Shown: piece by piece, positions 5 through 25,532 of the stretch
Position numbering within the stretch: position 1 is the first letter of the stretch
Layout: the number at the start of each line of letters is the position of its first letter
Source: a virus
DNA length: 27,910 nucleotides
Direction: 5' to 3' (one strand)
Virus record (IMG/VR): IMGVR_UViG_3300043313_000464
Location: 1 to 27,910 of that record
Translations under genes and position numbers: made by a program
Notes under the pieces: generated by a model
Told to the model about the DNA's origin: nothing
Seen by the model: only the letters and a program-made list of their open reading frames with translations
Databases searched by the model: none

Positions 5-1642
5 CTAGAACAATTCCCTCACATATTGCGTGCCGTCCTCGCGCCCGTAACGGCTGCCGTCCTCGCGCATCAGCATGAATTCGGGAGCAGGGTCAGGGAT
101 CACCGGCGGCAGACCTTCGTCGACATCAGGCTCATAGGCTTCGATGAAATCCGGCTCAATACGGATGAACGACCATGTGATGCGATCATTAAGCAAATCG
201 ACTTCGGCGTCCTGTATCTCGACGACGCAATCCTGCAAGCCAGAGACGAACGGATAGTGCAACGGCACCCACCGCTTGCCGAGGTAGCGCATACCGGCCA
301 GGCTGGTCGTGAACGTGCCGGTCATCAGCGCGTTGAGCCGCATCATCGCGCGGTCGGCGAGCCGCCGAGATTGCCCGAGGCTTTGCACCCACCGCAATTC
401 CAGTTGCTGCGAGCGCACGATGCCGGCCTCGGAAATGCTTTCCTCGTCGCGCCACGGGTCGGCCTGCACCGGCACGTATTTCTGGTCTGGCGCGGTGTAG
501 GAGATTTCCAGCTGGTTGACGGTCTGTTCGTCGGCGGTGCCATAGGCCAGGCTGAAACCGAAGATGTGATTTTGCGTCAGTGGCGGATCGCCTGGCTCCC
601 GATAAACGCCGACGGTCAGCGTCATGGTGCCGTCGCCGGCCTCGGCCAGCCAGCCGTCGCACGTCGACAGAATGCCGCCGATCACGTCCTCGGGCATGTT
701 GTCGAAACGGAACCAGCCGTGCGAGGCATAGCGTTTTTCCATACCGCCGCCTGCCACCTCGACCAACTCGTCGCACAGATTGGCCTCGACCATCCACTCG
801 GCCAGGCTGGTCGGCGGCAGGATGATGTCGAGATCCAGCCCCATGCCGCCGTCAGGGTTGGTCAAATAGTCGATCAGTTCGATCACCGGGTTGTCGGTGT
901 ATTTCCAACTCGCGCGGTTGAAACGCGATTGCGTACTGTCGCGCGGATCCCAGCACAGCGAACACTTCACGACGCATGACAGTGACGGCAGGTTGCGCGG
1001 ATAGTTCTGGGTCTGAATGCTGACGTCAGCCGAGCCGGAACATTTCATGCCGACATGCGCGACACCCTCGCCGCGGTGAGCCGGCGTCCAGATAGAGTTA
1101 ATCTGCGGGTCGGATACGAACATCGAGAGTGCCGATTGTCCTGGCGTGCCGATCCGCGTTTCGATCTGGATGCCTAGCGCATATCGGCCGTCGGCATAGG
1201 TCGGGGCCAGGAACGAATTGCCGCCGTGACTGATGTCGGTGAGCGTCGTTACCGGATCGTCGCTCAGATAGAAACCGATGAAACTGTCGACTTGCCCCGC
1301 ATGCAGCGCCTGCACGTCGTAGGAGGTCGCCGGTGCTGGCCCGCCAACTTCGTTCAGCATGAAATAACCAGCAAGCTTGTTGACGCCATAGCCCTTGATG
1401 CGTGGCGGGATGGATTGCTTGACCGCGATCGAACCATCCTCTGGCCTTGGAATGTTCGGCTTTGAGGCCAGCGCATATTGCAGCCCGATGCTCGCGCCGA
1501 GGATAGCGGCGGTTCCGACCACCGTGGCGAGGCTGATCGACGCCGAGCCGATGACAATGGTCGAGGTTGCCGCGGTGCCGAGGCCGGCAATGCCGCCGCC
1601 AATCGTCGCTTCCAGGATCAGCACGCCCGCGACTTCAGCCAT
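5..1642 (-). CDS. J-like tail tip / central tail hub protein
   Basis: A 545-residue protein, last in the visible tail cluster, in the position of the lambda J / gene-transfer-agent host-specificity protein at the tail tip. The first 60 residues are hydrophobic and Gly/Ala/Ser-rich, as in other J-like proteins. The middle is beta-rich with blocks typical of tail hubs, such as ELIDYLTNPDGG and DGWLAEAGDGTMTL. The C-terminus has a short REDGxxYxREDG repeat. The start at 1642 was chosen over an upstream ATG at 1744 because ATGGCTGA overlaps the stop of the peptidase gene by 8 bases, and the extra 34 residues would be Arg/Cys-rich shadow sequence. The TAG stop is followed at once by ATG (positions 4..2), so another tail gene probably begins at the left edge. 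Role inferred from position and composition. Confidence 0.8.
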   Translation of the reverse strand: MAEVAGVLILEATIGGGIAGLGTAATSTIVIGSASISLATVVGTAAILGASIGLQYALASKPNIPRPEDGSIAVKQSIPPRIKGYGVNKLAGYFMLNEVGGPAPATSYDVQALHAGQVDSFIGFYLSDDPVTTLTDISHGGNSFLAPTYADGRYALGIQIETRIGTPGQSALSMFVSDPQINSIWTPAHRGEGVAHVGMKCSGSADVSIQTQNYPRNLPSLSCVVKCSLCWDPRDSTQSRFNRASWKYTDNPVIELIDYLTNPDGGMGLDLDIILPPTSLAEWMVEANLCDELVEVAGGGMEKRYASHGWFRFDNMPEDVIGGILSTCDGWLAEAGDGTMTLTVGVYREPGDPPLTQNHIFGFSLAYGTADEQTVNQLEISYTAPDQKYVPVQADPWRDEESISEAGIVRSQQLELRWVQSLGQSRRLADRAMMRLNALMTGTFTTSLAGMRYLGKRWVPLHYPFVSGLQDCVVEIQDAEVDLLNDRITWSFIRIEPDFIEAYEPDVDEGLPPVIPDPAPEFMLMREDGSRYGREDGTQYVRELF

Positions 1643-2078
1643 TTGCGAGCGTCCAGGCCTTGAGCACCGGCAGCGCGGCGTCCCCGGCAATGACAATGCC
1701 GAGATCGCTGGTTGCCACCGCGCGCATGTCGCCCGATGTCGCAATTGCCCCGGTCGGCCGCCGCTGGATCACGCCGCGGCGTTTAGCGAACGGCGCCAGC
1801 ACTGCCACGATGTCGCCGGCGCCAGGCGTTGCCGCTTCGACATAGCCGCAAGCTGCGAGCCGCCGCGCGCATGCCGCCTCGAACCCGCCTTCGTGCCGCA
1901 CGATCTTGAGGAATTGCCGTTCGGTGGAATAGCGCCCGCGCACATCGGCAATCGGATCCCGGCCGGTGACCAGATAAACCCAGTCGGCCATGAACACCGC
2001 GCAGTCGAACGCGCCCGGTTGCCAGCGCCGTCCGACGAGGCCCGCCAGGTAATCGCTCACGCCGGGAATGTCGGCCAT
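1635..2078 (-). CDS. NlpC/P60-like tail peptidase (DUF6950-type)
   Basis: A 147-residue protein just before the J-like gene, the usual place of the lambda K-type NlpC/P60 peptidase that helps assemble the tail tip and cut peptidoglycan during entry. The motif FDCAVFMADW puts a candidate nucleophile Cys at residue 26. The later ATPGAGDIVAVL block fits the beta-strand region of this fold. The gene overlaps its upstream neighbour by 22 bases and the J-like gene by 8, indicating translational coupling. The catalytic His is not obvious in the C-terminal half, so the fold assignment is firmer than the claim of activity. Confidence 0.7.
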   Translation of the reverse strand: MADIPGVSDYLAGLVGRRWQPGAFDCAVFMADWVYLVTGRDPIADVRGRYSTERQFLKIVRHEGGFEAACARRLAACGYVEAATPGAGDIVAVLAPFAKRRGVIQRRPTGAIATSGDMRAVATSDLGIVIAGDAALPVLKAWTLANG

Positions 2079-2665
2079 GCTTTTTGAAACCCCGAGGCAT
2101 AGATCGGCGTGCGCTCGCAGAACCGATCACCCGGCACGCGCGCTTGCTGGTCCTGGTTGGTGAAATAGGAAAACGACGGCCGCCGCCGGCCGGTCATGAT
2201 CGAGCCGCACGACAGCGTCAGCGCGCGCACCACCGAGCCCGAGCCCTCGTCCGCGGTTTGCGAAATCGCCAGATAGTCGGCCTCGTAATTGGCACACCAT
2301 TTCACCGGCCCGAGCAACTGCCATTCTGCGTCCATGATGCCAATGCCGACCGACATGCGCCTGCCCTTGACCATGTCCGGCGCGCCGCTCGATGCCATCT
2401 GCAACAGCTTGCCCGACACGCCAGAGACCGTGAAATCCACCCGCACCGCGCGGCCGTTGATAAGTTGGTTATAGGGCGGCACCGCCTGCACCTCGCCGAA
2501 CCCGAGGTAGGTTTCGTCCGGCCCGTCATAGACGTTGACGCCCGGCTTGATCTCGCCGATGCCGAGCCACAACCTGATCACCGGATCGGTTTCGAGCCGC
2601 CAGAAAATTGCGATGCGGTGCATGCTGCTTTCGAGCACGGCAATTTCGTTGTCGTTGAGGATCAT
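2057..2665 (-). CDS. Phage tail-tip/baseplate protein, unknown fold
   Basis: A 202-residue protein in the slot of the gene-transfer-agent/TP901-like baseplate proteins between the tape measure and the J-like hub. The sequence is beta-rich (RLWLGIGEI, YDGPDETYLGFGEV) with no enzyme motif. The start at 2665 forms an ATGA overlap with the stop of the gene before it and has GGAA upstream. The in-frame ATG at 2680 lies inside that gene and is less likely. The three proteins between tape measure and J (this one, its upstream neighbour and the peptidase) probably form the distal tail complex. Assigned mainly from position. Confidence 0.62.
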   Translation of the reverse strand: MILNDNEIAVLESSMHRIAIFWRLETDPVIRLWLGIGEIKPGVNVYDGPDETYLGFGEVQAVPPYNQLINGRAVRVDFTVSGVSGKLLQMASSGAPDMVKGRRMSVGIGIMDAEWQLLGPVKWCANYEADYLAISQTADEGSGSVVRALTLSCGSIMTGRRRPSFSYFTNQDQQARVPGDRFCERTPIYASGFQKAWPTFPA

Positions 2666-3396
2666 TGCGGTACGTTCCATGTCTCGACGAAATCGACCGA
2701 GGCGCGATTGAACGTCCAGGGGATTACGTTGAGGTCCATCGAGCTCGGCCGCGCCAGCCGCATCGTGCAGCGCGGCCGGTCGAATTCCAGTTGCGTGCCG
2801 GCTGGCACTTCCTGGCGCAATGGCGGGTTGAATGTCACGACGGCGGTGTCGCTATCGACATAGTGCACCGTCGAGATTTCATAGAGCCGCCAGCCCATCC
2901 GGGTATGGTTGACCGAGAATGCCTCGCCGCCGAGCAGCGGCCCGCAATAGGTTAGCGTCAGTTCCATCGATGTCGCGCGCAGTGGCGCGGTGGCACCGGC
3001 CGACACCTGCGCATTGCTTTGATAGTAGCCGGTGCCGTCGCTGTGCAGCGTATTGTCGCTGTGCCTGATATGCCCGCTGGCGAGGCCAGGCGTTGACGGC
3101 CGGAACAGCGCGTCATTGCGCGGTACCACGATCGATCGCACGCCGCCCTCGCAATATTGCCGCACCGCGCGCCAAAGCAGGGTCGATTGCCGCTGGCGAG
3201 CTCGGCCGGTCAGGCCAGGCCCGCCCGATAGCGACACATCGTTCATCACGCATGACCAGTAACCGCCGCCATCGCTGCGCACCAGGATGGCACCGGCACC
3301 AACCGTTTGCCCCGGCACGGCAGCGACCCCGAGCAGGTTCCAGGCGTGGCTTTGTTCGCGCAACAGCGCGCGCGGGAATTGAACGATCGCCGCCAT
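2662..3396 (-). CDS. Phage tail-tip protein, unknown function
   Basis: A 244-residue protein directly downstream of the tape measure gene. Start and tape-measure stop share one base (TGATG), so the two are coupled. It is beta-rich (YCGPLLGGEAF, RLYEISTVHYVDSDTAVV) with no recognised catalytic motif. In siphoviruses and gene transfer agents this place holds the distal tail protein or first baseplate component, and a similar role is inferred. The family was not identified with certainty. Confidence 0.6.
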   Translation of the reverse strand: MAAIVQFPRALLREQSHAWNLLGVAAVPGQTVGAGAILVRSDGGGYWSCVMNDVSLSGGPGLTGRARQRQSTLLWRAVRQYCEGGVRSIVVPRNDALFRPSTPGLASGHIRHSDNTLHSDGTGYYQSNAQVSAGATAPLRATSMELTLTYCGPLLGGEAFSVNHTRMGWRLYEISTVHYVDSDTAVVTFNPPLRQEVPAGTQLEFDRPRCTMRLARPSSMDLNVIPWTFNRASVDFVETWNVPQ

Positions 3397-5120
3397 CAGC
3401 CGACCCCCGTCGCCTGCAGGCGCTGCGTTTGCGTCACCATCTTCATTAGGCCGTCGGCCTTCTTGTTCGCCGCGGTCACCGCCTGCGCCAGCCGATCGAT
3501 GGTCGACTGCGAGACATCGCCGGACACATAGAACTGGTTGCTCACCGCAGTGCCGCCAGCCATGTTCGCACGCAGCACGTCGTTCGGTATCACTTGCGCG
3601 CCGCGCGGCAGATTGACGAGCTCAGGCCCGCGCTCGCCGACCAGTGCCATGCCGCCCGGTGCCGAGTTGGTGCCGCCGGCAAACCCGAGCATTTTCGAGA
3701 ATGGCGACAACCCGCCGCCGGCACCCGGCGTGAACAGCGACATGATCGTGGAATTGATCGCCGCCTTTGCCAGCGTCTTGAGCAGGCTGTCGAGCACCTC
3801 GTTCAGTTTCTTGCCCTCGACGATGGCGTCGCTAAACGCGGTTGAAATCGCCGAGCCTAATTGCTGGCTTGCCGAGTTGATTTGCTGGACCTTGAAGGTT
3901 GCCTCGGCGAGTGCCTGCGCGGCACGGCCGGCGGCGTCGGCTTGTGCCGCAATCCTGGCGGTCTGTTCTGCCGTGAGCGTAATGGCCTCGCCCTCGGCGA
4001 GATTGAGCTTTCGCCGCATCCCTTCCATCAGCGCCGCCTCGGTGCGCAAGCGTTCCTTTTGCTGAACGTTTGCGCCGGCCGCCGCGGCGTCGGCATTCAT
4101 CAGCGCGATGTGCTTGGTGATCTGGTCATTGGCTCGCTCGAACGCGTCGGCCTCGGTGGCGGTGCCGGCACCGCCGAGGCCGAACGGATCCTTGGCTTTG
4201 CCCTTGCCGGTGACCTCGACCTGCGTCAGTCCCGCGGTCGCCGACTTCTTTGTCTCGTTGAGGATCCGGTTGATTTCCTGCCACCGCGCGAGCTCGCGCT
4301 CGGATGCCGCCTGCAACGGCCCGCCGTGAAAGAGCGACTGTTCCCACTCGGTGATTGCCAGCGCAATCGCGGCGAGTTTCTTGAAACCCTCAACCGCCTT
4401 TCCCGCCCAGTCGCTGCCGAGGTCTTTGATCCACGCCGACCAGGTGTCTTTCAATTTTCTGGTTGCCTCGACCGCGTTGTCGATGTTCGGCGCTGCAGCG
4501 GCGGCAGCTTGGGCCATCTTCACGAATGCGTCGCCGCCATCCTGGAATGCCTTGACCGCACCGGCTGGCATGTTGAGCGCCTCGGCAACCCGAACCTTTT
4601 GCACCTGGTTGTCGAGGTTATTGATGATGTTGCCGACGACTTTCAATGTGTCGTTCAGCGTCATTGCATTGCGGTTGTAGCCCTTCAGAAATTCCGGATT
4701 AGCGTCGAACAGCTTGGTAAGGTTGTTCTCGCCACCGCGCTGCATGGTGTCGAGTTGTTCACGGATACCGGCAATTGCCTTGTTCATATCCTCGAACGAT
4801 GCCCCGGCTTTCGCGCCTGCCGCCTGCACACCGTACAGCCATTGCAGCGAGGTGCCGGCATATTCCGCGGTCTTTTGCAGATCGCTAAACCGGTCAATCA
4901 GCTTGCTCATCGCGTCAACAGCGGCGTTGATACCCTTGTCGACCATGTTGGCAAAGAAATTGCCGAGGAATGACGTTTTAATCGACGGGTTTATTTTCGA
5001 GAATTTATCCTCGACATCGCTGGCAGCCTTCTCGGCCATGATGCCGGCCTTCTGCATGTCCTTTTCAAATTTTGTCAGTTGCGCGGAGAGCGCGACAACT
5101 AACGCTGCGGTGTCTGCCAT
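3396..5120 (-). CDS. Tail tape measure protein
   Basis: A 574-residue protein, mostly helical and Ala-rich, that sets tail length and is ejected with the DNA. The N-terminus (ALVVALSAQLTKFEKDMQKA) is typical of tape measure proteins. The near-C-terminal block ALVGERGPELVNLPRGAQVI is a widespread signature of the family. Hydrophobic Gly/Ala-rich stretches lie at about 235-260 and 440-490. At the usual 0.15 nm per residue this suggests a tail of about 85 nm. It lies 3 bases downstream of the gp10-like gene and overlaps the next gene by one base. Confidence 0.92.
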   Translation of the reverse strand: MADTAALVVALSAQLTKFEKDMQKAGIMAEKAASDVEDKFSKINPSIKTSFLGNFFANMVDKGINAAVDAMSKLIDRFSDLQKTAEYAGTSLQWLYGVQAAGAKAGASFEDMNKAIAGIREQLDTMQRGGENNLTKLFDANPEFLKGYNRNAMTLNDTLKVVGNIINNLDNQVQKVRVAEALNMPAGAVKAFQDGGDAFVKMAQAAAAAAPNIDNAVEATRKLKDTWSAWIKDLGSDWAGKAVEGFKKLAAIALAITEWEQSLFHGGPLQAASERELARWQEINRILNETKKSATAGLTQVEVTGKGKAKDPFGLGGAGTATEADAFERANDQITKHIALMNADAAAAGANVQQKERLRTEAALMEGMRRKLNLAEGEAITLTAEQTARIAAQADAAGRAAQALAEATFKVQQINSASQQLGSAISTAFSDAIVEGKKLNEVLDSLLKTLAKAAINSTIMSLFTPGAGGGLSPFSKMLGFAGGTNSAPGGMALVGERGPELVNLPRGAQVIPNDVLRANMAGGTAVSNQFYVSGDVSQSTIDRLAQAVTAANKKADGLMKMVTQTQRLQATGVG

Positions 5121-5123
5121 GGG

Positions 5124-5528
5124 TTACTCTGCTGAATATTGCTTGATGCGCTTGGTGATCTTGCGCTTCATCGCGGATCGCATTTTCTTTTTCATCAGGC
5201 GGTAGGAGGGAAAGAAAAACGGTTGCGCGGCGACGTGCTCGGTGCCGAATTCGACCGCGCGCGCATAGTCGTAAGGCTTGCCGCTGCCGCCCTGCCGCGT
5301 CGTGGCAGCGCCACCCGCCCTGACCACCACGACGGTCTGCTTCTTGCCTGGCTCGATGCGGATCGATCTGGCGAGCTCGCCGGTCGGCCCATGCTTGACC
5401 GCGGATGCCATCACCCCGACCAGCGCCGCGGCTTGTGCGTTGAGTTCGGCAACCGCGTCGATAAAGATGTCGCGCTGCAGATCAACTGTTAGTTTGCGAA
5501 ATGCCGCCACGCTTTTGTTTGGTGCCAT
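5124..5528 (-). CDS. HK97 gp10-like morphogenesis protein
   Basis: A 134-residue basic protein resembling the HK97 gp10 family, which acts in head-tail joining or tail completion. Typical traits are an N-terminal helix with an Ala-rich stretch, the central block GPTGELARSIRIE, then PYDYARAVEFGTEH and AQPFFFPSYR, and a Lys/Arg-rich tail. The start ATG is preceded by AAGGGA at good spacing. It overlaps the end of the chaperone T-like frame by 47 bases. Its place between tail chaperones and tape measure is unusual: the family normally sits with the connector genes, before the tail tube gene. Confidence 0.78.
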   Translation of the reverse strand: MAPNKSVAAFRKLTVDLQRDIFIDAVAELNAQAAALVGVMASAVKHGPTGELARSIRIEPGKKQTVVVVRAGGAATTRQGGSGKPYDYARAVEFGTEHVAAQPFFFPSYRLMKKKMRSAMKRKITKRIKQYSAE

Positions 5529-5694
5529 TCATTCCCTTGTGCGCCTCGGCCTCGGCGGATGCCTCGACCATCGCGTCAAATTCGGCGTCGCTCGGTGCCG
5601 CAGGTTTCGGCTCGCCGCCGTGCACCCTGTTCCAGCCGTCGACCGCAGCGGCAAATTGCCAGAACGAACAGCGGTCAACCTGGTCCGGCGCCAT
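5482..5694 (-). CDS. Tail assembly chaperone, T-like frame (made mainly by -1 frameshift)
   Basis: This reading frame is open well upstream and overlaps the G-like chaperone gene. From the ATG at 5694 it gives 70 residues (MAPDQVDRCSFWQFAAAVDG...) resembling the small tail chaperone of gene-transfer-agent-like tails, which has a conserved W-(x)2-(A/T)-A block. That ATG lies 2 bases after the G-like stop and lacks a well-spaced ribosome site. A slippery GGGAAAA at 5781-5787 in the G frame, followed by a stem-loop, would instead fuse the two by a -1 shift. The fusion would have about 120 residues of the G-like protein plus 99 of this frame (5482-5781), about 219 in all. This parallels lambda G and GT, which coat the tape measure and recruit tail tube subunits. 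Confidence 0.72.
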   Translation of the reverse strand: MAPDQVDRCSFWQFAAAVDGWNRVHGGEPKPAAPSDAEFDAMVEASAEAEAHKGMNGTKQKRGGISQTNS

Positions 5695-5696
5695 CC

Positions 5697-6140
5697 CTAT
5701 TGCAGCACCGATCCCGTAGAACTCAGAACACCGGATGGGTCCGAACTCGCCGGCTCGTCCGGTGTCGCCGGCGTCGGTTCTTTTCCCACCGGATCGTCGG
5801 GCGGCCCGAACATGGCGAACTGCAACACGGTGCGCGCGGTCGGCATGCTGTTGAAATAGGCCCGCCCCTCGACGTGGCGCTTGACCAGCACCAGCGCACG
5901 ATCGCCTTTCAGCCCGCCGCCGATCAGGCCGAGCCGGATCACCTCGCGCACGTCGTGCGGCCATGCGTTGCCATCCATCAGCGCACGCAACAGCCCCATC
6001 GGCCCGAGCGTCGGCTCGCCGATTTCGAGCCGGTGCTTGTTGATGCTCTCCTGAAGTTCGCGCCATTGCCCGAACGCGATGCGGAACGTGTGTTCCTCAC
6101 CACCGAATTCGAGCGTGACCGAGCCGTCCTCGCTCGACAT
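5697..6140 (-). CDS. Tail assembly chaperone, G-like (GTA gp10 type)
   Basis: A 147-residue protein between the tail tube and tape measure genes, the conserved place of G-type tail chaperones. The sequence (SVTLEFGGEEHTFRIAFGQW, LGPMGLLRALMDG) resembles the gene-transfer-agent chaperone family. The start at 6140 was chosen over an upstream in-frame start because it shares one base with the stop of the tail tube gene (TAATG). The last 27 residues, after Gly-Lys at the slippery site, are Pro/Ser/Glu-rich and probably unstructured, as expected if the functional extension is in the other frame. Confidence 0.8.
   Translation of the reverse strand: MSSEDGSVTLEFGGEEHTFRIAFGQWRELQESINKHRLEIGEPTLGPMGLLRALMDGNAWPHDVREVIRLGLIGGGLKGDRALVLVKRHVEGRAYFNSMPTARTVLQFAMFGPPDDPVGKEPTPATPDEPASSDPSGVLSSTGSVLQ
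5748..5787 (-). promoter_or_regulatory. Programmed -1 ribosomal frameshift signal
   Basis: The minus strand reads GGGAAAA at 5787..5781, in frame as G GGA AAA, matching X XXY YYZ and close to lambda's GGGAAAG. After a 7-base spacer comes a perfect 7-bp GC stem, CGCCGGC (5773..5767) with GCCGGCG (5754..5748), around a 12-base loop. The -1 frame is open from here to its stop at 5482. Site, spacing and structure match the known G/GT arrangement. Actual frameshifting is inferred. Confidence 0.85.
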
Positions 6141-6577
6141 TACGGGATCACCTCCGGCACAACGGCCCCATCTGAAACGATGGCTACCGACATCTGCACC
6201 TTGTTGCCGCGCTCGGCGTTGATGTTGAATTCCTGCAATTTCGCCGGCATGATCCATGCGTATTCAACAGGGTTGCCCAGCTCGATGCGAACGTTGCGGG
6301 TTTCGCCGGCGTTCCACCAGTCTTCCCAGGTCTCGAACGACTCTTGCGCGACCACACCCTCACCGGCAATCGCGCCCTGATAGGACACGACATCGCGGCC
6401 GAGCCACGACGGTGCGTCGGGATCGTCGCAGTCAGGCACATTGGTATCGTTGAGGTTGGCAGTCCGCGTGAACCCTTTCGAGGTCAGACCGCACGGATCT
6501 GTGAATACTTCCGGCGATGCGCCGTCGCCGATCTTCACCAGGAATTTGCTGAACGGATAGGTAGTGGCTTGGGTCAT
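6140..6577 (-). CDS. Major tail tube protein
   Basis: A 145-residue protein just upstream of the tail chaperones. It has the features of a siphovirus tail tube subunit: an N-terminal strand with FLVKIGDGASPEVF, then a substitution-type block (TWEDWWNAGETRNVRIELGN), and late strands (MSVAIVSDGAVVPEVIP). It would polymerise around the tape measure to form the tail tube. The ribosome site GGAG lies 8 bases before the ATG. An intrinsic terminator lies only about 16 bases upstream of the start, between this gene and the one before it. It probably has strong independent expression, though no clear promoter was found in the short gap. Confidence 0.85.
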   Translation of the reverse strand: MTQATTYPFSKFLVKIGDGASPEVFTDPCGLTSKGFTRTANLNDTNVPDCDDPDAPSWLGRDVVSYQGAIAGEGVVAQESFETWEDWWNAGETRNVRIELGNPVEYAWIMPAKLQEFNINAERGNKVQMSVAIVSDGAVVPEVIP

Positions 6578-6646: not shown

Positions 6647-7090
6647 CTACGGCCCGGTGAGCGTCAGCACGCCCGCTGCAGGATCGTAATCAACCGTGAA
6701 TGCTTCCCCGCTCACCAGCGTCACCGACGCGCCGTTGTCCCACCAGCCAATCAGCGGATCGGCGGGCGACGTCGGGGTGTCGTTGTAGAGCACGGCATAG
6801 CGAAACGGCCCGAACCCGCCGCCACTCGCCGTCCACGACACGTCGCCCAGCACCAGCTTGTAGACGCCGCCGGTCTGTGCCGAGCTTGTAATCGATGCGA
6901 CCTGGCCGCCTGCCGTATAGCCGCCGGTCGTGGTCAGCGTCTCCGACAGATCGGCCTTGACGGCCATCGTTGATGCGTTCGGCGCGGTGTTGGTGAGATA
7001 AACCTTGAGGGTATCCGCGCCGAGGTTGTGTACCTTCTCGGCAAGGTGTTCGAGTAACGAATTGAACTTGTTGAACGGCTGGACCGACAT
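6647..7090 (-). CDS. Conserved phage structural protein, unknown function
   Basis: A 147-residue protein resembling a family common near tail tube genes. It begins with FNKFNSLLEHLAEKVHNLGAD and LKVYLTNTAPNAST, has a Gly/Thr-rich middle (TTTGGYTAGGQ), and ends with FRYAVLYNDTPTS and PLIGWWDNGASVTL. The sequence is beta-rich with no enzyme motif. I recall the pattern as frequent in phages but know of no established role; a virion decoration or tail protein is a reasonable guess. An intrinsic terminator follows about 30 bases after the stop, so this gene ends a transcription segment. Confidence 0.7.
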   Translation of the reverse strand: MSVQPFNKFNSLLEHLAEKVHNLGADTLKVYLTNTAPNASTMAVKADLSETLTTTGGYTAGGQVASITSSAQTGGVYKLVLGDVSWTASGGGFGPFRYAVLYNDTPTSPADPLIGWWDNGASVTLVSGEAFTVDYDPAAGVLTLTGP

Positions 7091-7102: not shown

Positions 7103-9583
7103 CTATGCTACAGAATTGTTGCGCGCGTTCACCGCCACCCACGCGGGGCAGGTTGTCAGAACACCGCCCTCGGTCGAGGTAAGCCCGTAACTGTCCGGCG
7201 CACCGAACGACCACCGATACCCGACATTGACCGAAAGAAAAATCGACGGCATCGCCGTTTTGGGCATGGCACAGATCGTGTTGAAATAATTAACCAGCGT
7301 CGTCCCCATCTGCGCGCAGCGATAGGCCGCAATCATTAATTGTTCATCGGCAGCGGTTAGGGAGTGTCCGTAAAGATTGGTGCCCGGTGTAGTAGACCAG
7401 TTTCCCGCCCCCTCATACTGCACGACATACTGTCCGGCACCCATTTGAGCAGTGAACTGGGTATGCCGCGCCAGATGGTCAGTTAGCGATAGCCCATCCG
7501 TGGCTGTCGCCATCGCGTTGACGAAGTTGGTCAGCGCCTGCGTCTGGTTGGGCGCGCCAGCATATGGCCCTGTTCCAGCATACATATGACTGTCGTCGGT
7601 CAGCGTGCCCGCTCCCGATCCAGCGTAGTAAGTTGGACCCGCCTCGAAATACGGCGCGGGTGCTACGGCGTCGTGCCAATTCTTCGGCGGCCCCCACGAA
7701 CCCGCCACCACTACGCTGTCGGTGTTGTAATTGTATCCAACAGTCCCCGGCGTCGAGGAGCCGTTCCACGCCCCGTGATTTCCGGAGATGTCTCCTGCAG
7801 TCATGCCCGACGCGGCATGCATGCCAAACACGATCTTGATCCGCGCCTCGGAGGGGAAAGCCGCCTTGATGTCACGCGCCATCGCAGTCGAGCGCAGTGC
7901 ATGTGCGTCTCGCTTGCTGATGTAGGATGTGCCCCACCGGGTTCGCGAATACCATGAATGCCAGTGGCTCTGGTTAAATGTCGGAGCCGTGTTCCATATC
8001 TCGTTGCAATACTCGATGTAGAGCATCGCGCCGGTCGCGCCCGTCAACAGCCCCGGCCACGTCACGCCACCAACCGTGCTGCCGTTGAGGATTACGTCCG
8101 TGGCCTTTACAGCCCAATTCGACGCCGCGCTGTAGTCGGGATCGATAGAGAGCATCATCCGGTGCGGGTAACAGATCCATAAACTGATCGGGTTCTTCGG
8201 TCCTGTCTGATTGAGTTCTATAATCAGCTTGGTCAGGATTTCCAGCGGCACACCATCCCAGTGCCCATACGCAGCCCCGGAACCGGCGAATATCCACGCG
8301 CCATTGACGTAATTACCCGCACCATCTGATTTGCCGATAATGGTCTTGTCGAAGTAGAACGTCTGGAGATCGTTTTGATTGACATAACCGTTGCCAAAAA
8401 TCCCCGCGCCGACATTGCCGGTTGACCACACAATCGGATAGTCGCCGCGCAATCCGACATTGAGCGACACGTAGACGTAGCAGTCGCATCCCTGCCCTGC
8501 GACAAAAGCAGCCTGCCCGGTAAGGTTCAGATTAGTGATATCGTAGGTCGTCGTATTGATGACGTTAATCGTGGCGGGGAAGAAATCCAGTTTCGGCACG
8601 CCATTGCCTACCGCGACCCGGTGCATGATTACTTGCGCGTTTGTGAACCCGTGCGGAACTGACGTCACCACGCGAGGCGTCGCCGCTGATGTAACCGAGG
8701 TCATCGGTCGAGGCCCATCCACGCCAACCGCACTGCTGCCCATTCGACATATGACAGTCTCGCCATGGGTTACCGATGCCGGGGTCTGGCGCACACCTGT
8801 ATTGATCGACGGCAGCACATACTGGTTGACGCCTGTCGTGGTGCCGTACAGCGGTGACTGTATGAAATTGACGTTGTTGCCATAACTGGCATAATTCGGA
8901 AGGCACCTGTTTTCAAACCGCATGCCTTGAGCGTCATTACCGCCTGACCAGTTCATCACCCGCAGCGCAGACGGGTCATGATCGGCAATCTGTTGCAGGT
9001 ACGCCCGGCGAAACACCCGGCCCGCCAACAGATCGCTTTCGTCCTCCAGCCGGTAAACCCTGAAGTTTCGCACGAAGCCATCTGGTCCGCCGGTTGCAGC
9101 GAATTGAAAACCAAAAATGTTTGGCGCGCCCAACCAACTCGACAAGGTTGCTATGATGCGCGCCGACTGACCCGCGACGTTGCTCCATCTGCCGTTGGAA
9201 ATTTTGGTGTAGGTGGTGCCGGTGTTGTTGCTCTCGGTCCACGTCGCCGCCGACATATACAGCGTGCCGGTGCCGTCCCAAGTGATGACATAGGGACCGT
9301 CGAACTTGCTGCTGTCAGGAAACTTTAATCCGCCGCCCCACTCATGCCCGGACGCATTGGCGTGGTTGGGATAACCCGTCACCTGATCGAGCATCTCAGG
9401 CCACGACGGATTGACACCTACAAACGCCGCGCCAGACGGAGAAGCAAAATTGTCGCTCTCCAGCACGTGGTTGATAAACGGATAGTGTGCCACGTCGTTG
9501 ATGTAGGACAGGTTGACTACACTGCGCTTCGAGAACGGCACCGCAATCGGATCGGACAGTTTTGTTTTGCGAAGAAATCCCAT
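7103..9583 (-). CDS. Virion-associated glycoside-hydrolase-like protein
   Basis: A large protein of 826 residues. The N-terminal 250 residues are beta-rich (WDGTGTLYMSAATW, FGFQFAATGG). Residues 270-370 look like a small beta insert or Ig-like module. From about 380 there is a (beta/alpha)-barrel-like region. Two catalytic Glu candidates of clan-A glycoside hydrolases are visible: E528 in EYCNEIWN (the Asn-Glu acid/base pair) and E724 in QYEGAGNW (the nucleophile strand), 196 residues apart. It would be a virion enzyme cutting a surface polysaccharide or capsule, or a glycan-binding protein. It starts 2 bases after the preceding gene's stop. Its place between tail terminator and tail tube is odd for a tail spike. 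Substrate unknown. Confidence 0.7.
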   Translation of the reverse strand: MGFLRKTKLSDPIAVPFSKRSVVNLSYINDVAHYPFINHVLESDNFASPSGAAFVGVNPSWPEMLDQVTGYPNHANASGHEWGGGLKFPDSSKFDGPYVITWDGTGTLYMSAATWTESNNTGTTYTKISNGRWSNVAGQSARIIATLSSWLGAPNIFGFQFAATGGPDGFVRNFRVYRLEDESDLLAGRVFRRAYLQQIADHDPSALRVMNWSGGNDAQGMRFENRCLPNYASYGNNVNFIQSPLYGTTTGVNQYVLPSINTGVRQTPASVTHGETVICRMGSSAVGVDGPRPMTSVTSAATPRVVTSVPHGFTNAQVIMHRVAVGNGVPKLDFFPATINVINTTTYDITNLNLTGQAAFVAGQGCDCYVYVSLNVGLRGDYPIVWSTGNVGAGIFGNGYVNQNDLQTFYFDKTIIGKSDGAGNYVNGAWIFAGSGAAYGHWDGVPLEILTKLIIELNQTGPKNPISLWICYPHRMMLSIDPDYSAASNWAVKATDVILNGSTVGGVTWPGLLTGATGAMLYIEYCNEIWNTAPTFNQSHWHSWYSRTRWGTSYISKRDAHALRSTAMARDIKAAFPSEARIKIVFGMHAASGMTAGDISGNHGAWNGSSTPGTVGYNYNTDSVVVAGSWGPPKNWHDAVAPAPYFEAGPTYYAGSGAGTLTDDSHMYAGTGPYAGAPNQTQALTNFVNAMATATDGLSLTDHLARHTQFTAQMGAGQYVVQYEGAGNWSTTPGTNLYGHSLTAADEQLMIAAYRCAQMGTTLVNYFNTICAMPKTAMPSIFLSVNVGYRWSFGAPDSYGLTSTEGGVLTTCPAWVAVNARNNSVA

Positions 9584-9585
9584 TG

Positions 9586-10476
9586 CTATGGCCCCGCTAC
9601 AATGGCGTCGAGGAAACCCTGATTACTGCCGCTGGTGCCGGGCGAACCAATGGTGACAGACTTCGCGCCACTGCTGCCGGTGAATATCCGGTATTCGTGC
9701 AGCGTGTAGTCGCTGTTGGAAGCTGTAGGAATGCGCGTGTAACCAGCGCCCGCAGCTGGATCGCTTTCTCCACCCATGTTCCAGCACGCGTACACCAGCG
9801 TATTGGGCGATGTCACGGTGATGTTCGCAGGGTCGGCGGGAGCGCCGTATGGCGTCAGTGTCGGACACGACGCATTGACATCAAACGGCGCGGAATATTT
9901 CGAACCATTGACGGCAAACGCCCGCCCCGACAGATAACTCGAACCGGGAGCGGTAATGGTGATGGTCTCGCCCGCCAACGCCAATGGTGCCTGTATCCAG
10001 AACGAGAATACGCTGCCGCCGCTACCTCGTTGAGCGAACGCCCCTCGTGTCGAGCCGCTGACGCCTGTCACCGGCGCGCTGTTGGCCCTGACCGTCACCA
10101 CGATGATGTTGTTCGGTTTCGTTGTTACCAGCGGAGGCAGCACCAGCGATGTGCCACCGGAATTACCCATCACGATCCCATCCAGCGACAGCGTCAGCGC
10201 AGGCGGCGTCATCTGCGTGGTGCCGGGATCTACAAGTTCGAACGCGCCAGTGCCCGCAGGCATGGTGTATCCCGTCTGCGTCGTCATGTCCTCGCCGGTG
10301 ATGGTAAAGCTGCCAACACCGCATTCCAGGAGGATCGGCGGGGTTCTGGCTGGCGCAACAAGGTTTGCATCCATCCCGTCGAGACGGAATGCGCCAGGCA
10401 ATGCCCTGATCGTATTCGGCGGTGTGGTGTCGGCCATCGCCGATCGCGCGATCATGCCGGCGCGGAAACTTACCAT
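9586..10476 (-). CDS. Beta-sandwich phage structural protein, fiber or adhesin-like
   Basis: A 296-residue protein of Gly/Thr/Ser-rich beta character with few charged residues. Recurrent strands include NNIIVVTVRANSAPVTGV, ETITITAPGSSYLSGRAFAV and NTLVYACWNMGGE. The C-terminal half resembles a beta-sandwich module found in fiber-like proteins of rhizobial phages. No catalytic motif is seen. It sits between the tail terminator gene and the glycoside-hydrolase-like gene, 2 bases from the latter, so the two are probably made together and may act together on the host surface. The start at 10476 leaves 13 bases after the upstream stop with a weak GAG ribosome site. Confidence 0.6.
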   Translation of the reverse strand: MVSFRAGMIARSAMADTTPPNTIRALPGAFRLDGMDANLVAPARTPPILLECGVGSFTITGEDMTTQTGYTMPAGTGAFELVDPGTTQMTPPALTLSLDGIVMGNSGGTSLVLPPLVTTKPNNIIVVTVRANSAPVTGVSGSTRGAFAQRGSGGSVFSFWIQAPLALAGETITITAPGSSYLSGRAFAVNGSKYSAPFDVNASCPTLTPYGAPADPANITVTSPNTLVYACWNMGGESDPAAGAGYTRIPTASNSDYTLHEYRIFTGSSGAKSVTIGSPGTSGSNQGFLDAIVAGP

Positions 10477-10489
10477 GGTGCTGCTGCTC

Positions 10490-10897
10490 TCATGCTGGTT
10501 CGGTCCAGGCGTGCACGGTGATGACAGCGTGCGCGGTGATGCCGTCGGGATCGCGCATGTACTGGATCTGCTCGATCGACAACTCGATCAGCCGCTGGCC
10601 GTCGAGGACGATCTCGGCGCGATCGAGATCTGATGCGATGGCGGCGCCGAGCTGCTTGACCTGGACGGTGTCCGGTCCGGCCGCCCAGCCGTCGAGCGTC
10701 ATGAACACTTCGCCGCCGTCGAGGCAGTCGCCATGCTCGGGCAGCATCTGGAACGGCCCGAACGAAACGTAAGGCTTGACCGCGCTGCCGGGCACGCCGT
10801 CGTAGATCCTCCCGCCGGTGGCAACGCCGGTAGCGCCGGCCATCATAAGTGACCGCGTAGCTTTCTGCATCGCCAGCGCCGGGTCGGAATAGCTCAT
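10490..10897 (-). CDS. Tail terminator protein, DUF3168 family
   Basis: A 135-residue protein of the DUF3168 type, which caps the tail tube and joins it to the head. Family marks are the N-terminal helix MSYSDPALAMQKATRSLM, then GGRIYDGVPGSAVKPYVSFG, and a C-terminal strand DGITAHAVITVHAWT. The ATG at 10897 forms an ATGA overlap with the stop of the head closure gene; the longer frame from 10933 is rejected for that reason. Order (connector, small protein, head closure, DUF3168) follows the normal head-tail joining set. Confidence 0.85.
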   Translation of the reverse strand: MSYSDPALAMQKATRSLMMAGATGVATGGRIYDGVPGSAVKPYVSFGPFQMLPEHGDCLDGGEVFMTLDGWAAGPDTVQVKQLGAAIASDLDRAEIVLDGQRLIELSIEQIQYMRDPDGITAHAVITVHAWTEPA

Positions 10898-11265
10898 ACC
10901 GCCACCCCGGTTTCGGCTATCATCTCGATCCACAGCCCGTGCTTGCTGTCGCCGATCAAAGGATCGATCGCAGTGCGGATGTTGTATTCGCGGCCAGCCT
11001 CGTCAGTGGCTTTCCAGTCGGTGGTGATCAATTTGGTGTCCGGCGACTTGCGGACCCGGATCAGGACCGGCTGGCGCCCGGCGAGCCGGGCCGCATCCAC
11101 TGCTTCGCCGCCGAGCTTGGCGATGATGTTGGCCGACACCACGAAGCGATCAACCCAGCCGGTCGAGACGTTGCCATACTCGTCCTCGACGGCGTCGCGC
11201 TCGGCGAACGTCACCCGGTAGCGCAGGTCACCTGCGCCGCTAACGCTTGCGAGGCCGGAAGGCAT
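10894..11265 (-). CDS. Phage head closure protein
   Basis: About 123 residues resembling the SPP1 gp16 / phage head-tail joining family: GDLRYRVTFAERDAVEDEYGN, WVDRFVVSANI, GREYNIRTAI, and a C-terminal GLWIEMIAETG. It would plug the portal-connector channel and give the surface for tail docking. The start is uncertain. The ATG at 11265 overlaps the small upstream gene by 26 bases. A GTG at 11301 and an ATG at 11298 in the same frame add 11-12 residues but deepen the overlap to about 60 bases. The conserved part begins near GDLRYRVTF, favouring the shorter form. Confidence 0.82.
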   Translation of the reverse strand: MPSGLASVSGAGDLRYRVTFAERDAVEDEYGNVSTGWVDRFVVSANIIAKLGGEAVDAARLAGRQPVLIRVRKSPDTKLITTDWKATDEAGREYNIRTAIDPLIGDSKHGLWIEMIAETGVAV

Positions 11266-11458: not shown

Positions 11459-12000
11459 CAGCACCTCGGGAACCAATAGGTGCTGATGACATCGGTCATC
11501 CAACCCGGCGACTGCGCCTCGGTGCCGGCGACCAGGATCTCGCGGTTCTCGTAGAGGTGCGAGGTGTAGCGCAGGATGGCATCGGTAATGCCGGGGTCGA
11601 GTTCATCGGCATCGGCATAACCCGACGGGATGCTGACTGCCATGCCGGCGGCGTATGGCCCGACCAGGCAATACAGGCCGACGCCGTGCGTCGACATGGT
11701 CTCGACCATGTAGTTTCCGGTCACATCGCCATCGGCGTCGACCGTGACATCGTTCACCGGCGACACCGGAACCGTTGCAACGCTGTCGCAAAAATTACCT
11801 TCGTCCGGAGACCAGGTCCACGTCACCGGATTGACCGAGACGTTCGTCACCCGCTCGAACCAGTTGATGGCCCGCTTGATGGCGTCAGTGATGTAGGCAT
11901 CGTCGTAGGTTCCGTCGACGCGAAGGTGGCTCTTGACGATCGGCAACAACGCTGTCGGCAGAGCGGTGCGGTCGAGCCCGGTGGATGCGATCGCGCTCAT
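11458..12000 (-). CDS. Head-tail connector protein (gp6-like)
   Basis: A 180-residue protein with the helical N-terminus of HK97 gp6 connectors: PIVKSHLRVDGTYDDAYITD followed by a helix with WFERVTNVSV. A beta-rich centre follows, then a C-terminal helix with TDAILRYTSHLYENRE and a final WFPRC. It would form the ring below the portal. It forms an ATGA overlap with the collagen-like gene. The length is normal for the family. Confidence 0.85.
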   Translation of the reverse strand: MSAIASTGLDRTALPTALLPIVKSHLRVDGTYDDAYITDAIKRAINWFERVTNVSVNPVTWTWSPDEGNFCDSVATVPVSPVNDVTVDADGDVTGNYMVETMSTHGVGLYCLVGPYAAGMAVSIPSGYADADELDPGITDAILRYTSHLYENREILVAGTEAQSPGWMTDVISTYWFPRC

Positions 12001-12617
12001 GCCATCACCTGGCGGTAATAGCGTTCGATCACCGGCATCAGGTCGCAGGACAACACCGAGCCGTCCGAACGCAATACCATCAGCGTGCTATCCGAAATGG
12101 TCATTTCCTCGATCCCGACCCCGTCGGCGCCGCGCTCGCCCTTTGCGCCCTTCTCGCCCGGCGGGCCTTTCTCGCCAGGCCGGCCGCGGACCCCCTTGGC
12201 CCCTAACATCCAGCCCGGCCCCGGCAGTTCGCCGGGATCGTCCTTCACCGCCCGCCATTCGCTGCCGTTGTGTGTGACCACGTCCATGGCCCGGTATTCG
12301 GCCTTGGCGTCCCATAGGCCCCGAGCCTCGCCGGGATAGCCGTCCAGACCGCGCTCACCCTGCGCGCCAGCCTCTCCAGGCGGTCCGGCTGGCCCGATGT
12401 CACCCGCCAGCCCGCGCGGCCCAGGATCGCCCACCGGCCCGCGCTCGCCGTTCTGGCCCCGCTCGCCGGGCTCCCCGGCAGGCCCCGGCAGGCGCACCAG
12501 GTTGCCGTACTCGTCAATCAGTTCCGCGACCCTGGTTTCCAGGGCAATCCGCGCGTTGCGTTCTGTCGCCAGCACCTCGCCGACGGCGGCTATAATCGAG
12601 CTATGATCAAGCTGCAT
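11997..12617 (-). CDS. Collagen-like phage protein with CBM5/12-like module
   Basis: A 206-residue protein. Residues 1-40 form a probable coiled-coil (TERNARIALETRVAELIDE) suited to trimerisation. Residues 45-98 are 18 uninterrupted Gly-X-Y triplets and 139-168 ten more. Between them, about 101-137, a WDAKAEYRAMDVV...GSEWRAV block resembles a CBM5/12 carbohydrate-binding module. The C-terminus is globular. It should form a collagen-like trimeric stalk or fiber exposed on the virion. Its place between portal and connector is unexpected for a fiber. It overlaps the portal gene by 11 bases and the connector gene by 4. Confidence 0.82.
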   Translation of the reverse strand: MQLDHSSIIAAVGEVLATERNARIALETRVAELIDEYGNLVRLPGPAGEPGERGQNGERGPVGDPGPRGLAGDIGPAGPPGEAGAQGERGLDGYPGEARGLWDAKAEYRAMDVVTHNGSEWRAVKDDPGELPGPGWMLGAKGVRGRPGEKGPPGEKGAKGERGADGVGIEEMTISDSTLMVLRSDGSVLSCDLMPVIERYYRQVMA

Positions 12618-23941: not shown

Positions 23942-24399
23942 ATTAACGCCCTCACCGTGACGCGCCCCTTGGCCCAGTGATGCGGGCACCATGACCGCTC
24001 GTTCTCGGTCGGCAGCCCGCAGTAGAAGTATGGCGGCTGGTCCTCGATCTTCCCCAGCGGCCAGCTGCAGACGCCGGGACGCAGATGGTAGATCGTCACC
24101 GGGGTTAGTGGTGCCGGCGGCTCGACCGGCGCGATCGGCACATCGGCCACGCGCCGGACCCTGACGCGGACGGGCTTGGGCATCGGTACCTCCTTGATCC
24201 TGATCGGCGATGGCCGGCCCACCAGCCCGAGCCGGTGGCAGCGGCCGATCACTGCGTTGCGGGTGAGTTCCAGCTTGAATTCGCGGTTGAGCTTGCCCGC
24301 GATCGCGCTCATCGACAGCGAGGCCATACCGCCGCGCTCGTACAGTTCGCGCATCCGCTCGTTGAGGCCGGCAGTGTGCCAGGGACCGCGCGGCGGCAT
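23938..24399 (-). CDS. gcrA-like: GcrA-like cell cycle transcription regulator
   Basis: A 153-residue GcrA family protein. The N-terminal DNA-binding part has NERMRELYERGG, SMSAIAGKLNREFKLELTRN and AVIGRCHRLGL, the family signature. After a Pro/Val linker comes the C-terminal sigma-70-interacting part: GVCSWPLGKIED, FYCGLPTENERSWCPHHW. In Caulobacter and relatives GcrA binds promoters with methylated GANTC and sigma-70, controlling cell cycle genes. Phage copies are known. The start is at ATG 24399, sharing a base with the methyltransferase stop; a GTG at 24402 is an equal alternative. Tight coupling with a methyltransferase gene suggests joint action. Confidence 0.93.
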   Translation of the reverse strand: MPPRGPWHTAGLNERMRELYERGGMASLSMSAIAGKLNREFKLELTRNAVIGRCHRLGLVGRPSPIRIKEVPMPKPVRVRVRRVADVPIAPVEPPAPLTPVTIYHLRPGVCSWPLGKIEDQPPYFYCGLPTENERSWCPHHWAKGRVTVRALI

Positions 24400-25532
24400 C
24401 ACGCTTGCACCTCCGCAAACATGCCCGCATCGTCACGGATGCGGCTCTCAGCCATGGCGGCGTATTCGGGATTGAGTTCGATCAAGAAGGCATCGCGGCC
24501 AAGACGGTCGGCAACAAGCCCCGTTGTGCCAGCGCCGCCGAATGGATCAAGCACGGTGCCGCCTTTAGGACAGCCGGCGAGAATGCACGGATCGATTAGT
24601 GCTGGCGGGAACGTCGCGAAGTGTGCCTCTTGAAATCCGTTAGTTGTTACCTCCCAAACAGATCTTTTGTTGCGTGTGTCACTCGCACCGATCTTTGATA
24701 AGTTGCTTTTAGTCCGGTGGAATTGTGCGTTGCCATCGGCCTCGTACTTCCCCAGACCGGTATTGCCCGGCCCTTCCGGGTAGTTGGCGGCTTCCCTGAT
24801 GGCGCCTGCGTCGTAGTAATAACGCGCACTCTTGCTCATCAGAAAAATGTATTCGTGCGCCTTGGTGCAGCGGTCGGTTACGCTCTCCGGCATCGGGTTC
24901 GGCTTCGACCAGATGATGTCCTGGCGCAGATACCAGCCGTCAGCCTGGAGCGCGAAGGCCACGCGCCACGGGATGCCGATTAGGTCTTTTTCCTTTAATC
25001 CATTAGGCGCGGTTTGCTTCCGGTCTGTTATTTGGTTCAGCGTGTTTCGTGTACTACCGACAAGCGCGGTATCGGAAACCTTCCGATCAGTGCCGCCGTT
25101 GCGGGCATAGCTATCCCCCAAATTGAGCCACAGCGTGCCGTCATCCCGCAGCACGCGGCGCACCTCCCGAAACACAGCCACCATTTCAGCCACGAAAGCG
25201 TCAGGCGTTGCCTCTAGCCCGATTTGGGGGTCATGATGTACTGCGCCGCACCGACACGTTCCGCCCTCACGCCACCGTCCGTTTTTCAACCGCTCTTTAT
25301 TAGCTTCTCCCGGTTGCGAGAACGCGCCCGACGAAGAAACCGCAGCCGTTTTTTCTGTGTAATACCTCTCGTCGCCTTTATGGTCGCACGCCGGATCTCC
25401 ACCCTTCCAAGTTCTGGTTCCATAATCGCGCAGCCCGAAGTAAGGCGGCGATGTCACGCAGCAATGCACTGACTTATCCGGCATCGTGCGCAGAACCTCG
25501 CGGCAATCGCCTTGGCGGATAGTGATGCTCAT
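24399..25532 (-). CDS. DNA methyltransferase, SPPY type (N4-C or N6-A, beta class order)
   Basis: A 377-residue site-specific DNA methyltransferase. Motif IV TSPPYFGLRDYG lies at 27-38 and the SAM-binding motif I DPFGGAGTTG at 329-338; this order (IV before I) is that of beta-class enzymes. DLIGIPWRVAFALQADGWYL and the IIWSKPNPMPESV block are typical of phage enzymes of this kind. The middle, residues 50-130, carries a possible zinc site (GDPACDHKGDERYY, GGTCRCGAVHHD). The SPPY motif does not settle N4-cytosine versus N6-adenine. No restriction partner is nearby, so it is an orphan methylase. It is coupled to gcrA-like. Confidence 0.92.
   Translation of the reverse strand: MSITIRQGDCREVLRTMPDKSVHCCVTSPPYFGLRDYGTRTWKGGDPACDHKGDERYYTEKTAAVSSSGAFSQPGEANKERLKNGRWREGGTCRCGAVHHDPQIGLEATPDAFVAEMVAVFREVRRVLRDDGTLWLNLGDSYARNGGTDRKVSDTALVGSTRNTLNQITDRKQTAPNGLKEKDLIGIPWRVAFALQADGWYLRQDIIWSKPNPMPESVTDRCTKAHEYIFLMSKSARYYYDAGAIREAANYPEGPGNTGLGKYEADGNAQFHRTKSNLSKIGASDTRNKRSVWEVTTNGFQEAHFATFPPALIDPCILAGCPKGGTVLDPFGGAGTTGLVADRLGRDAFLIELNPEYAAMAESRIRDDAGMFAEVQA

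Follow-up and report, generated by a model that had tools for sequence, protein, structure and literature searches.

A predicted clan GH-A-type glycoside hydrolase encoded in a movable three-gene cassette of a viral head-tail module, a candidate virion enzyme against host exopolysaccharide

The window, that is the whole stretch of DNA analysed here, is an entire 27,910-base IMG/VR record of class linear. Pfam and PHROG matches identified genes for an HK97-type TerL, a protease-MCP, a portal protein, a collagen-like protein, a head-tail adaptor, a head closure protein and a tail terminator, followed by three genes for proteins of 296, 826 and 147 aa and by genes for the tail tube, a tape measure protein and a J-like tail protein. 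A Phage_HCP match at 11301-10894 lies upstream (at higher coordinates) of the 826-aa gene. An earlier note on this DNA had described that gene as encoding 826 residues with NE at 527-528 and YEG at 723-725, exactly as in the translation (...LYIEYCNEIWN... and ...VVQYEGAGNW...). Its placement between tail terminator and tail tube is also borne out by the Pfam and PHROG matches of the neighbours. The gene does not stand alone there, being the middle of a three-gene cassette, which lies elsewhere in a related viral contig (L002). The cassette and its immediate context are as follows.

10490 to 10933, minus strand: tail completion gp17 / tail terminator, upstream context (Pfam and PHROG)
9586 to 10476, minus strand: 296-aa cassette partner without a family match, ending 2 bases before the hydrolase start
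7103 to 9583, minus strand: predicted 826-aa clan-GH-A-like glycoside hydrolase (P0001) of an unnamed family (ORF, family profile, AlphaFold2 model and structural matches)
6647 to 7090, minus strand: 147-aa cassette partner, phrog_644 (PHROG match; 59% identical in L002)
6140 to 6577, minus strand: tail tube protein, downstream context (Pfam and PHROG)

Between the tail tube and tape measure genes, an ORF at 5482-6066 (minus strand) matched phrog_18467 over residues 124-168 only; it could represent a frameshifted tail assembly chaperone region.

L002, a contig of the viral collection, was the one relative contig found to carry the cassette. Its hydrolase is 64% identical to P0001 and its two partners are 62.5% (296 aa) and 59% (147 aa) identical to those of the window, in the same order. 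Identity between the two hydrolase genes was 74, 79 and 52% at codon positions 1, 2 and 3, and the 64% identical L002 protein sits between homologues of both neighbours; the 826-aa ORF is a real gene. The trio separates tail terminator from tail tube in the window but head-tail adaptor from head closure in L002, where a further 140-aa ORF of uncertain reality comes after it. Conversely, the terminator directly adjoins the tube in L002 and the adaptor directly adjoins the head closure gene in the window. The portal, collagen-like, head-closure, terminator and tube proteins are 69-91% identical between the two contigs, and the adaptor 44%. As the trio occupies different head-tail sites in kept surroundings, the three genes moved as a unit; its genes are separated by gaps of 2 and 12 bases.

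Three prophage-like loci of the Bradyrhizobium family were considered as the empty cassette site. Their head genes match those of the window (portal 48-58%), but their tails differ and the cassette genes had no match there at E<=1e-4; thus they are not a true empty site, and the comparison of L002 with the window is the better test. The collagen-like G-X-Y protein (206 aa, 11997-12617, minus strand), whose gene separates those for portal and head-tail adaptor, is 84% identical to its L002 counterpart. It has matches in three prophage-like loci and is probably a virion fibre.

Parts of the cassette recur elsewhere. In other viral contigs, phrog_644-like proteins adjoin a hydrolase of the family (L042 and L066), and in L018 a part resembling the C-terminal region of the 296-aa protein lies directly upstream of the hydrolase. 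Eight records of named phages with phrog_644-like proteins were viewed, and in most of them the surrounding genes encode capsid, neck or tail proteins; in one of the eight a pectate-lyase gene lies two genes away, and in another, with non-structural neighbours, an alginate-lyase gene lies three genes away (podovirus records L246 and L247). No member of the hydrolase family was found in these eight regions. Polysaccharide enzymes in general may have phrog_644 as a partner. A tally of viral flanks covered 146 ORFs from 54 loci, with 25 of 127 families listed; among those listed, each structural family matched 1 or 2 ORFs, so most viral flanks are uninformative.

No Pfam, PHROG or NCBIfam model matched P0001 (Pfam at E<=1; a single NCBIfam line, E 1.9, is chance). 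A DNA pattern for the motif EYxNExWN recovered at least 120 stretches from viral contigs, and 68 of the 112 motif ORFs examined (L002 included) also carry a downstream YE-type motif; all 68 form one BLAST-linked group at E<=1e-3. The close variant EYCNExWN was found in L002 only in the viral scan. A profile built from 42 other viral members, leaving out P0001 and L002, gave a score of 107.7 bits for P0001 over residues 24 to 819 (E 3.3e-30, taking a set size of 100,000). A related pattern gave at least 116 stretches in bacterial genomes, and the titles among the matches listed include Planctomycetota, Bacteroidota, Cyanobacteria, Rhodobacteraceae, Thiotrichaceae and others. The family profile matched 208 of 241 loci, the window's own copy included, at E<1e-15. 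Ten members searched against Pfam and NCBIfam and ten viral members searched against Pfam and PHROGs matched no barrel model; what matches they had were to accessory domains or signals, or were weak and unrelated. Judged by sequence, this is a large hydrolase family of many bacterial phyla that occurs repeatedly in viral contigs and is without a model in Pfam, PHROG or NCBIfam.

P0001 matched none of 50,697 phage records and so cannot be tied to an isolate whose biology is known; the L106 protein likewise had no match among phage records. A profile search of genomes with a two-row alignment found no relatives. Matches in the PDB by sequence were chance only, or linked the pre-barrel region weakly to scaffoldin modules (121-row profile, E 0.055). 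Literature covering part of the published papers, with CAZy outside it, held no earlier description of the hydrolase family that we could find, and a search for the motif gave one unrelated paper.

The fold of P0001 was predicted with AlphaFold2 on a 121-row alignment (pTM 0.76, mean pLDDT 68.2, barrel core mostly above 80). An AlphaFold2 model from two rows was unusable (pLDDT 29.7), hence the fold depends on the 121-row alignment, in which every row except L002 shares 16-23% identity with P0001. Enzymes of clan GH-A share a (beta/alpha)8 barrel, an Asn-Glu pair at the C-terminal end of strand 4 and a nucleophile Glu ending strand 7; the two Glu lie about 5 A apart and the mechanism is retaining. 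The P0001 model likewise shows a (beta/alpha)8 barrel; its first strand spans 22-24, and the others are at 206-208, 467-472, 521-525, 582-587, 639-641, about 719-720 and 780-782. N527-E528 follows strand 521-525 and E724 follows the short strand 719-720, each kept in all seven unselected relatives (see below). Structure prediction had been proposed in the earlier note as a check on whether both Glu meet in a barrel, and it placed them at the strand-4 and strand-7 positions of a TIM barrel.

Structural comparison with the model pointed the same way. All ten Foldseek matches at E<=0.001 were described as arabinofuranosidases, one of them labelled GH51. VIA-align superposed 305 residues on the arabinofuranosidase 5o7z (Z 22.6, 3.2 A); several rows after it were named GH51, and 50 of the 50 among the matches listed are glycosidases. 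The matched arabinofuranosidase and GH51 entries belong to clan GH-A. A BFVD fold search with the model gave no match at E<=0.001. On the strength of the model, the fold and catalytic layout predicted for the 826-aa protein are well supported. The positions that these comparisons single out are given below.

9044 to 9343, minus strand: beta-rich region preceding barrel strand 2, residues 81-180 (DSSP of the model)
8960 to 8962, minus strand: R208 at the end of barrel strand 2 (invariant in 121 of 121; seven of seven unselected relatives)
8000 to 8005, minus strand: N527-E528, predicted acid/base Glu after strand 4 (alignment, model and seven of seven unselected relatives)
7649 to 7651, minus strand: Y645 after strand 6 (invariant in 121 of 121; seven of seven unselected relatives)
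7412 to 7414, minus strand: E724, predicted nucleophile after strand 7 (alignment, model and seven of seven unselected relatives)

Ten positions are invariant in the 121 aligned members: R208, E524, Y525, N527, E528, W530, N531, Y645, Y723 and E724. In this alignment EYxNExWN was pre-selected by the pattern and YE partly by the filter, while R208 and Y645 were unselected. Seven full-length relatives found by the profile alone (L284, L286, L287, L288, L297, L298 and L300) all keep R208, N527-E528, Y645 and E724, and Y525 varies in five of them; L296 and L299 (already found by the pattern), L301 (a repeat of L288) and L285 (interrupted) lie outside this set. Since N-E and E724 are kept in all seven, and the unselected R208 and Y645 are invariant in 121, the motifs are not a product of chance. 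The roles of the catalytic residues in clan GH-A are established. L285 itself, from a Bradyrhizobium-family genome, holds at 1351-3545 a close relative of the hydrolase that is apparently interrupted, with a transposase-like ORF after the open part.

The loop that follows barrel strand 2 is greatly enlarged in P0001 and includes two insertions.

8264 to 8863, minus strand: insertion between barrel strand 2 and helix 2, residues 241-440 (loop lengths; low pLDDT)
8474 to 8731, minus strand: second insertion nested in the first, approximately residues 285-370, the VPHGFTNAQV region (alignment gaps)

The loop from W212 to G444 is 231 aa long in P0001 and 236 in L002, compared with 119-144 aa in five rows (L066, L136, L039 and L035 among them) and 19-49 aa in 114 of the 121. 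Over most of residues 241-440 the pLDDT is under 50. The nested piece (about 285-370) is found in P0001 and L002, and also in L284; L066, L136, L039 and L035 have a gap there. The insertion as such also occurs in cellular members (L136 and L284). This lineage-specific insertion is on the barrel's catalytic side, where it probably influences how substrate is bound. A resemblance had suggested that it may be a tail-fibre domain; the P0001 insertion had no match at E<=1, and the L039 insertion had two marginal matches (E 0.6) annotated as tail fibre and tail collar.

To place P0001 among cellular proteins, 296 genomes from the family of the L136 Bradyrhizobium were searched, and relatives at E<=1e-10 were found in 6 of them. 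L284 comes closest, with 35% identity across 666 residues (E 7e-104); it has a twin-arginine-type start, read by eye, and is sister to P0001 plus L002 in a 35-row quick tree (SH-aLRT 99). The grouping of L058 with the P0001 clade in a tree was distrusted for its long branch. Pfam matches in the L284 flank comprise a methyltransferase, a GT4-type glycosyltransferase, a Wzx-type flippase, a GT2 and a WecG-type transferase, and a Wzy-like protein lacking a Pfam match is also present. Beside L286 lie a flippase gene and one whose product falls just short of the Pfam cut-off for Wzy_C; on the other side of L286 there is an RND-type transporter gene, as there is beside L284. L136 (Bradyrhizobium sp. 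SRL28) has a Tat signal. Read by eye, its neighbours include acyltransferase-like and Wzy-like genes and two GT4-like ones, and those of L287 and L288 are GT- or Wzy-like.

Among the top 25 families listed for 123 of the 163 neighbour ORFs (those within length and residue limits), the nearest neighbours of cellular members matched GT1 in 6, GT2 in 6, WecG in 3 and Wzy_C in 3. In a control of 107 ORFs taken from 31 arbitrarily chosen regions in these genomes (contig-1 stretches, with positions unmatched by gene distance), no GT family reached 2 ORFs among the top 25 families listed; given that listing, GT families there stand at one ORF each at most, possibly above zero. Polysaccharide-synthesis families are therefore enriched near cellular members, by a modest control. 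The link to rhizobial exopolysaccharide (EPS) drawn in the earlier note thus gains ground, with nearest relatives that are Tat-exported and lie in polysaccharide clusters of the Bradyrhizobium family. Because the nearest relative sits beside slime-making genes, the virus probably uses its enzyme to cut a slime coat.

The phage matches of the distal tail protein comprise 12 records only (27-34%), 11 of which are phages of Rhizobium, Sinorhizobium or Agrobacterium. The portal protein is 59% identical to that of a prophage-like locus in Bradyrhizobium sp. SRL28, the genome carrying L136, and in the one family searched, that of Bradyrhizobium, portal relatives at E<=1e-30 were found in 9 of 296 genomes. 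On these two lines of sequence evidence, a Hyphomicrobiales host is likely. The SRL28 locus L308 has a prophage-like head module related to that of the window (portal 58%, capsid 43%), an unrelated tail and two tape-measure-like ORFs.

Taking these results together, we lean towards a clan-GH-A-type hydrolase that is virion-borne with its movable cassette and cuts the EPS or capsule of a Bradyrhizobium-like host of the Hyphomicrobiales; its activity, retaining mechanism, substrate, virion attachment and host are what we infer here. The enzyme is most likely a virion part because it is co-encoded with the 296- and 147-aa partners in a movable cassette of the head-tail module. When the particle meets exopolysaccharide, the barrel would bind the chain in a groove beneath the strand-2 insertion. 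E528 as acid/base would protonate the glycosidic bond and E724 as nucleophile would form a glycosyl-enzyme, from which water would release the product. Such a double displacement mechanism is retaining, and R208 and Y645 would assist it in the active site. Cutting of the host exopolysaccharide or capsule during adsorption would bring the phage nearer to the cell, and the two partners probably anchor or aim the enzyme.

The same enzyme might instead act apart from the virion, made late and released at lysis or produced in lysogens, clearing or remodelling EPS around the host. The nearest relatives are indeed free exported enzymes rather than virion parts, and L035, of the same clade, adjoins an acyltransferase-like gene, yet we judge this unlikely: P0001 and L002, unlike the cellular relatives, have no apparent signal peptide (by eye), the hydrolase gene is embedded between tail terminator and tail tube, and it co-moves with two partners, of which the phrog_644 protein recurs among virion genes. 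Less probable still is that a hydrolase barrel without activity serves as a sugar-binding adhesin. The large insertion above the catalytic side and partners that appear to resemble adhesive surface proteins would suit such a role, but the catalytic positions are all kept in P0001, L002 and the seven unselected relatives. Similarly improbable is an enzyme for plant or other environmental glycans (e.g. arabinan, by the GH51 likeness) rather than for the host coat; although the best solved matches are arabinofuranosidases, the fold alone is shared (about 10% identity, no Pfam match), and the cellular relatives adjoin polysaccharide-synthesis genes.

A broader scenario can be offered tentatively, though we rather doubt it as a whole: an EPS hydrolase traded between phage and host, of which the exported host copy trims its own polysaccharide and the phage version, sharing the extra insertion domains, is neck- or head-mounted via the two partners in a movable cassette untied to the tail tip, the family being a new CAZy-type one of many phyla. 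In the viral contig L035, the gene adjoining the hydrolase (921-2060) encodes an acyltransferase-like membrane protein, for which a lysogenic change of surface polysaccharide is possible.

The predicted hydrolase can be set beside several known systems. GH51 enzymes have Asn-Glu after strand 4 and a Glu after strand 7. The P0001 model has both, and its barrel and order of elements agree with GH51 alpha-L-arabinofuranosidases (clan GH-A; 5o7z, 4atw and 3ug3) over the aligned 305 residues. Nevertheless, identity is about 10%, no Pfam or NCBIfam model matches P0001, its strand-2 insertion is large, and its model stops at the barrel end whereas GH51 chains continue past the aligned part. Neither does P0001 belong to the GH51 sequence family by our searches, as the 121-row profile found no GH51 chain in the PDB at E<=10 and Pfam gave no match at E<=1.

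PslG, a GH39 enzyme encoded in the psl cluster, is described as a hydrolase acting on the Psl EPS of Pseudomonas. Its function as a hydrolase of the cell's own EPS resembles the one proposed for P0001, but it is not described as phage-borne. Phage virion-associated depolymerases (beta-helix tailspikes) have the role proposed here, and P0001 differs from them in fold and gene position. Pantoea WceF is described as an EPS-modifying enzyme with a phage tailspike-like fold, and thus as an enzyme type common to a bacterial glycan system and phage particles (PMC7949094); its fold is of the tailspike type as described there, whereas that predicted for P0001 is a TIM barrel. According to the account of DepoScope, phage depolymerases are mostly beta-helix or propeller proteins, and TIM barrels, which made up 10 of the 984 fold hits in phage proteins, were omitted from training of the predictor for their rarity (PMC11326577). 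A candidate virion depolymerase is of a known kind; what is new is a fold rare in that role and a family without a Pfam, PHROG or NCBIfam model. The hydrolases offer a concrete handle on the exopolysaccharides that Bradyrhizobium-family bacteria make, and with them the sharing of an enzyme between EPS clusters and phage particles becomes testable.

Elsewhere in the window, a DNA methyltransferase-like ORF at 24399-25532 (minus strand) includes a stretch, 24870-24979, that is 88% identical in DNA to a Methanoculleus virus gene, and relatives of this ORF are present in L048 and L052.
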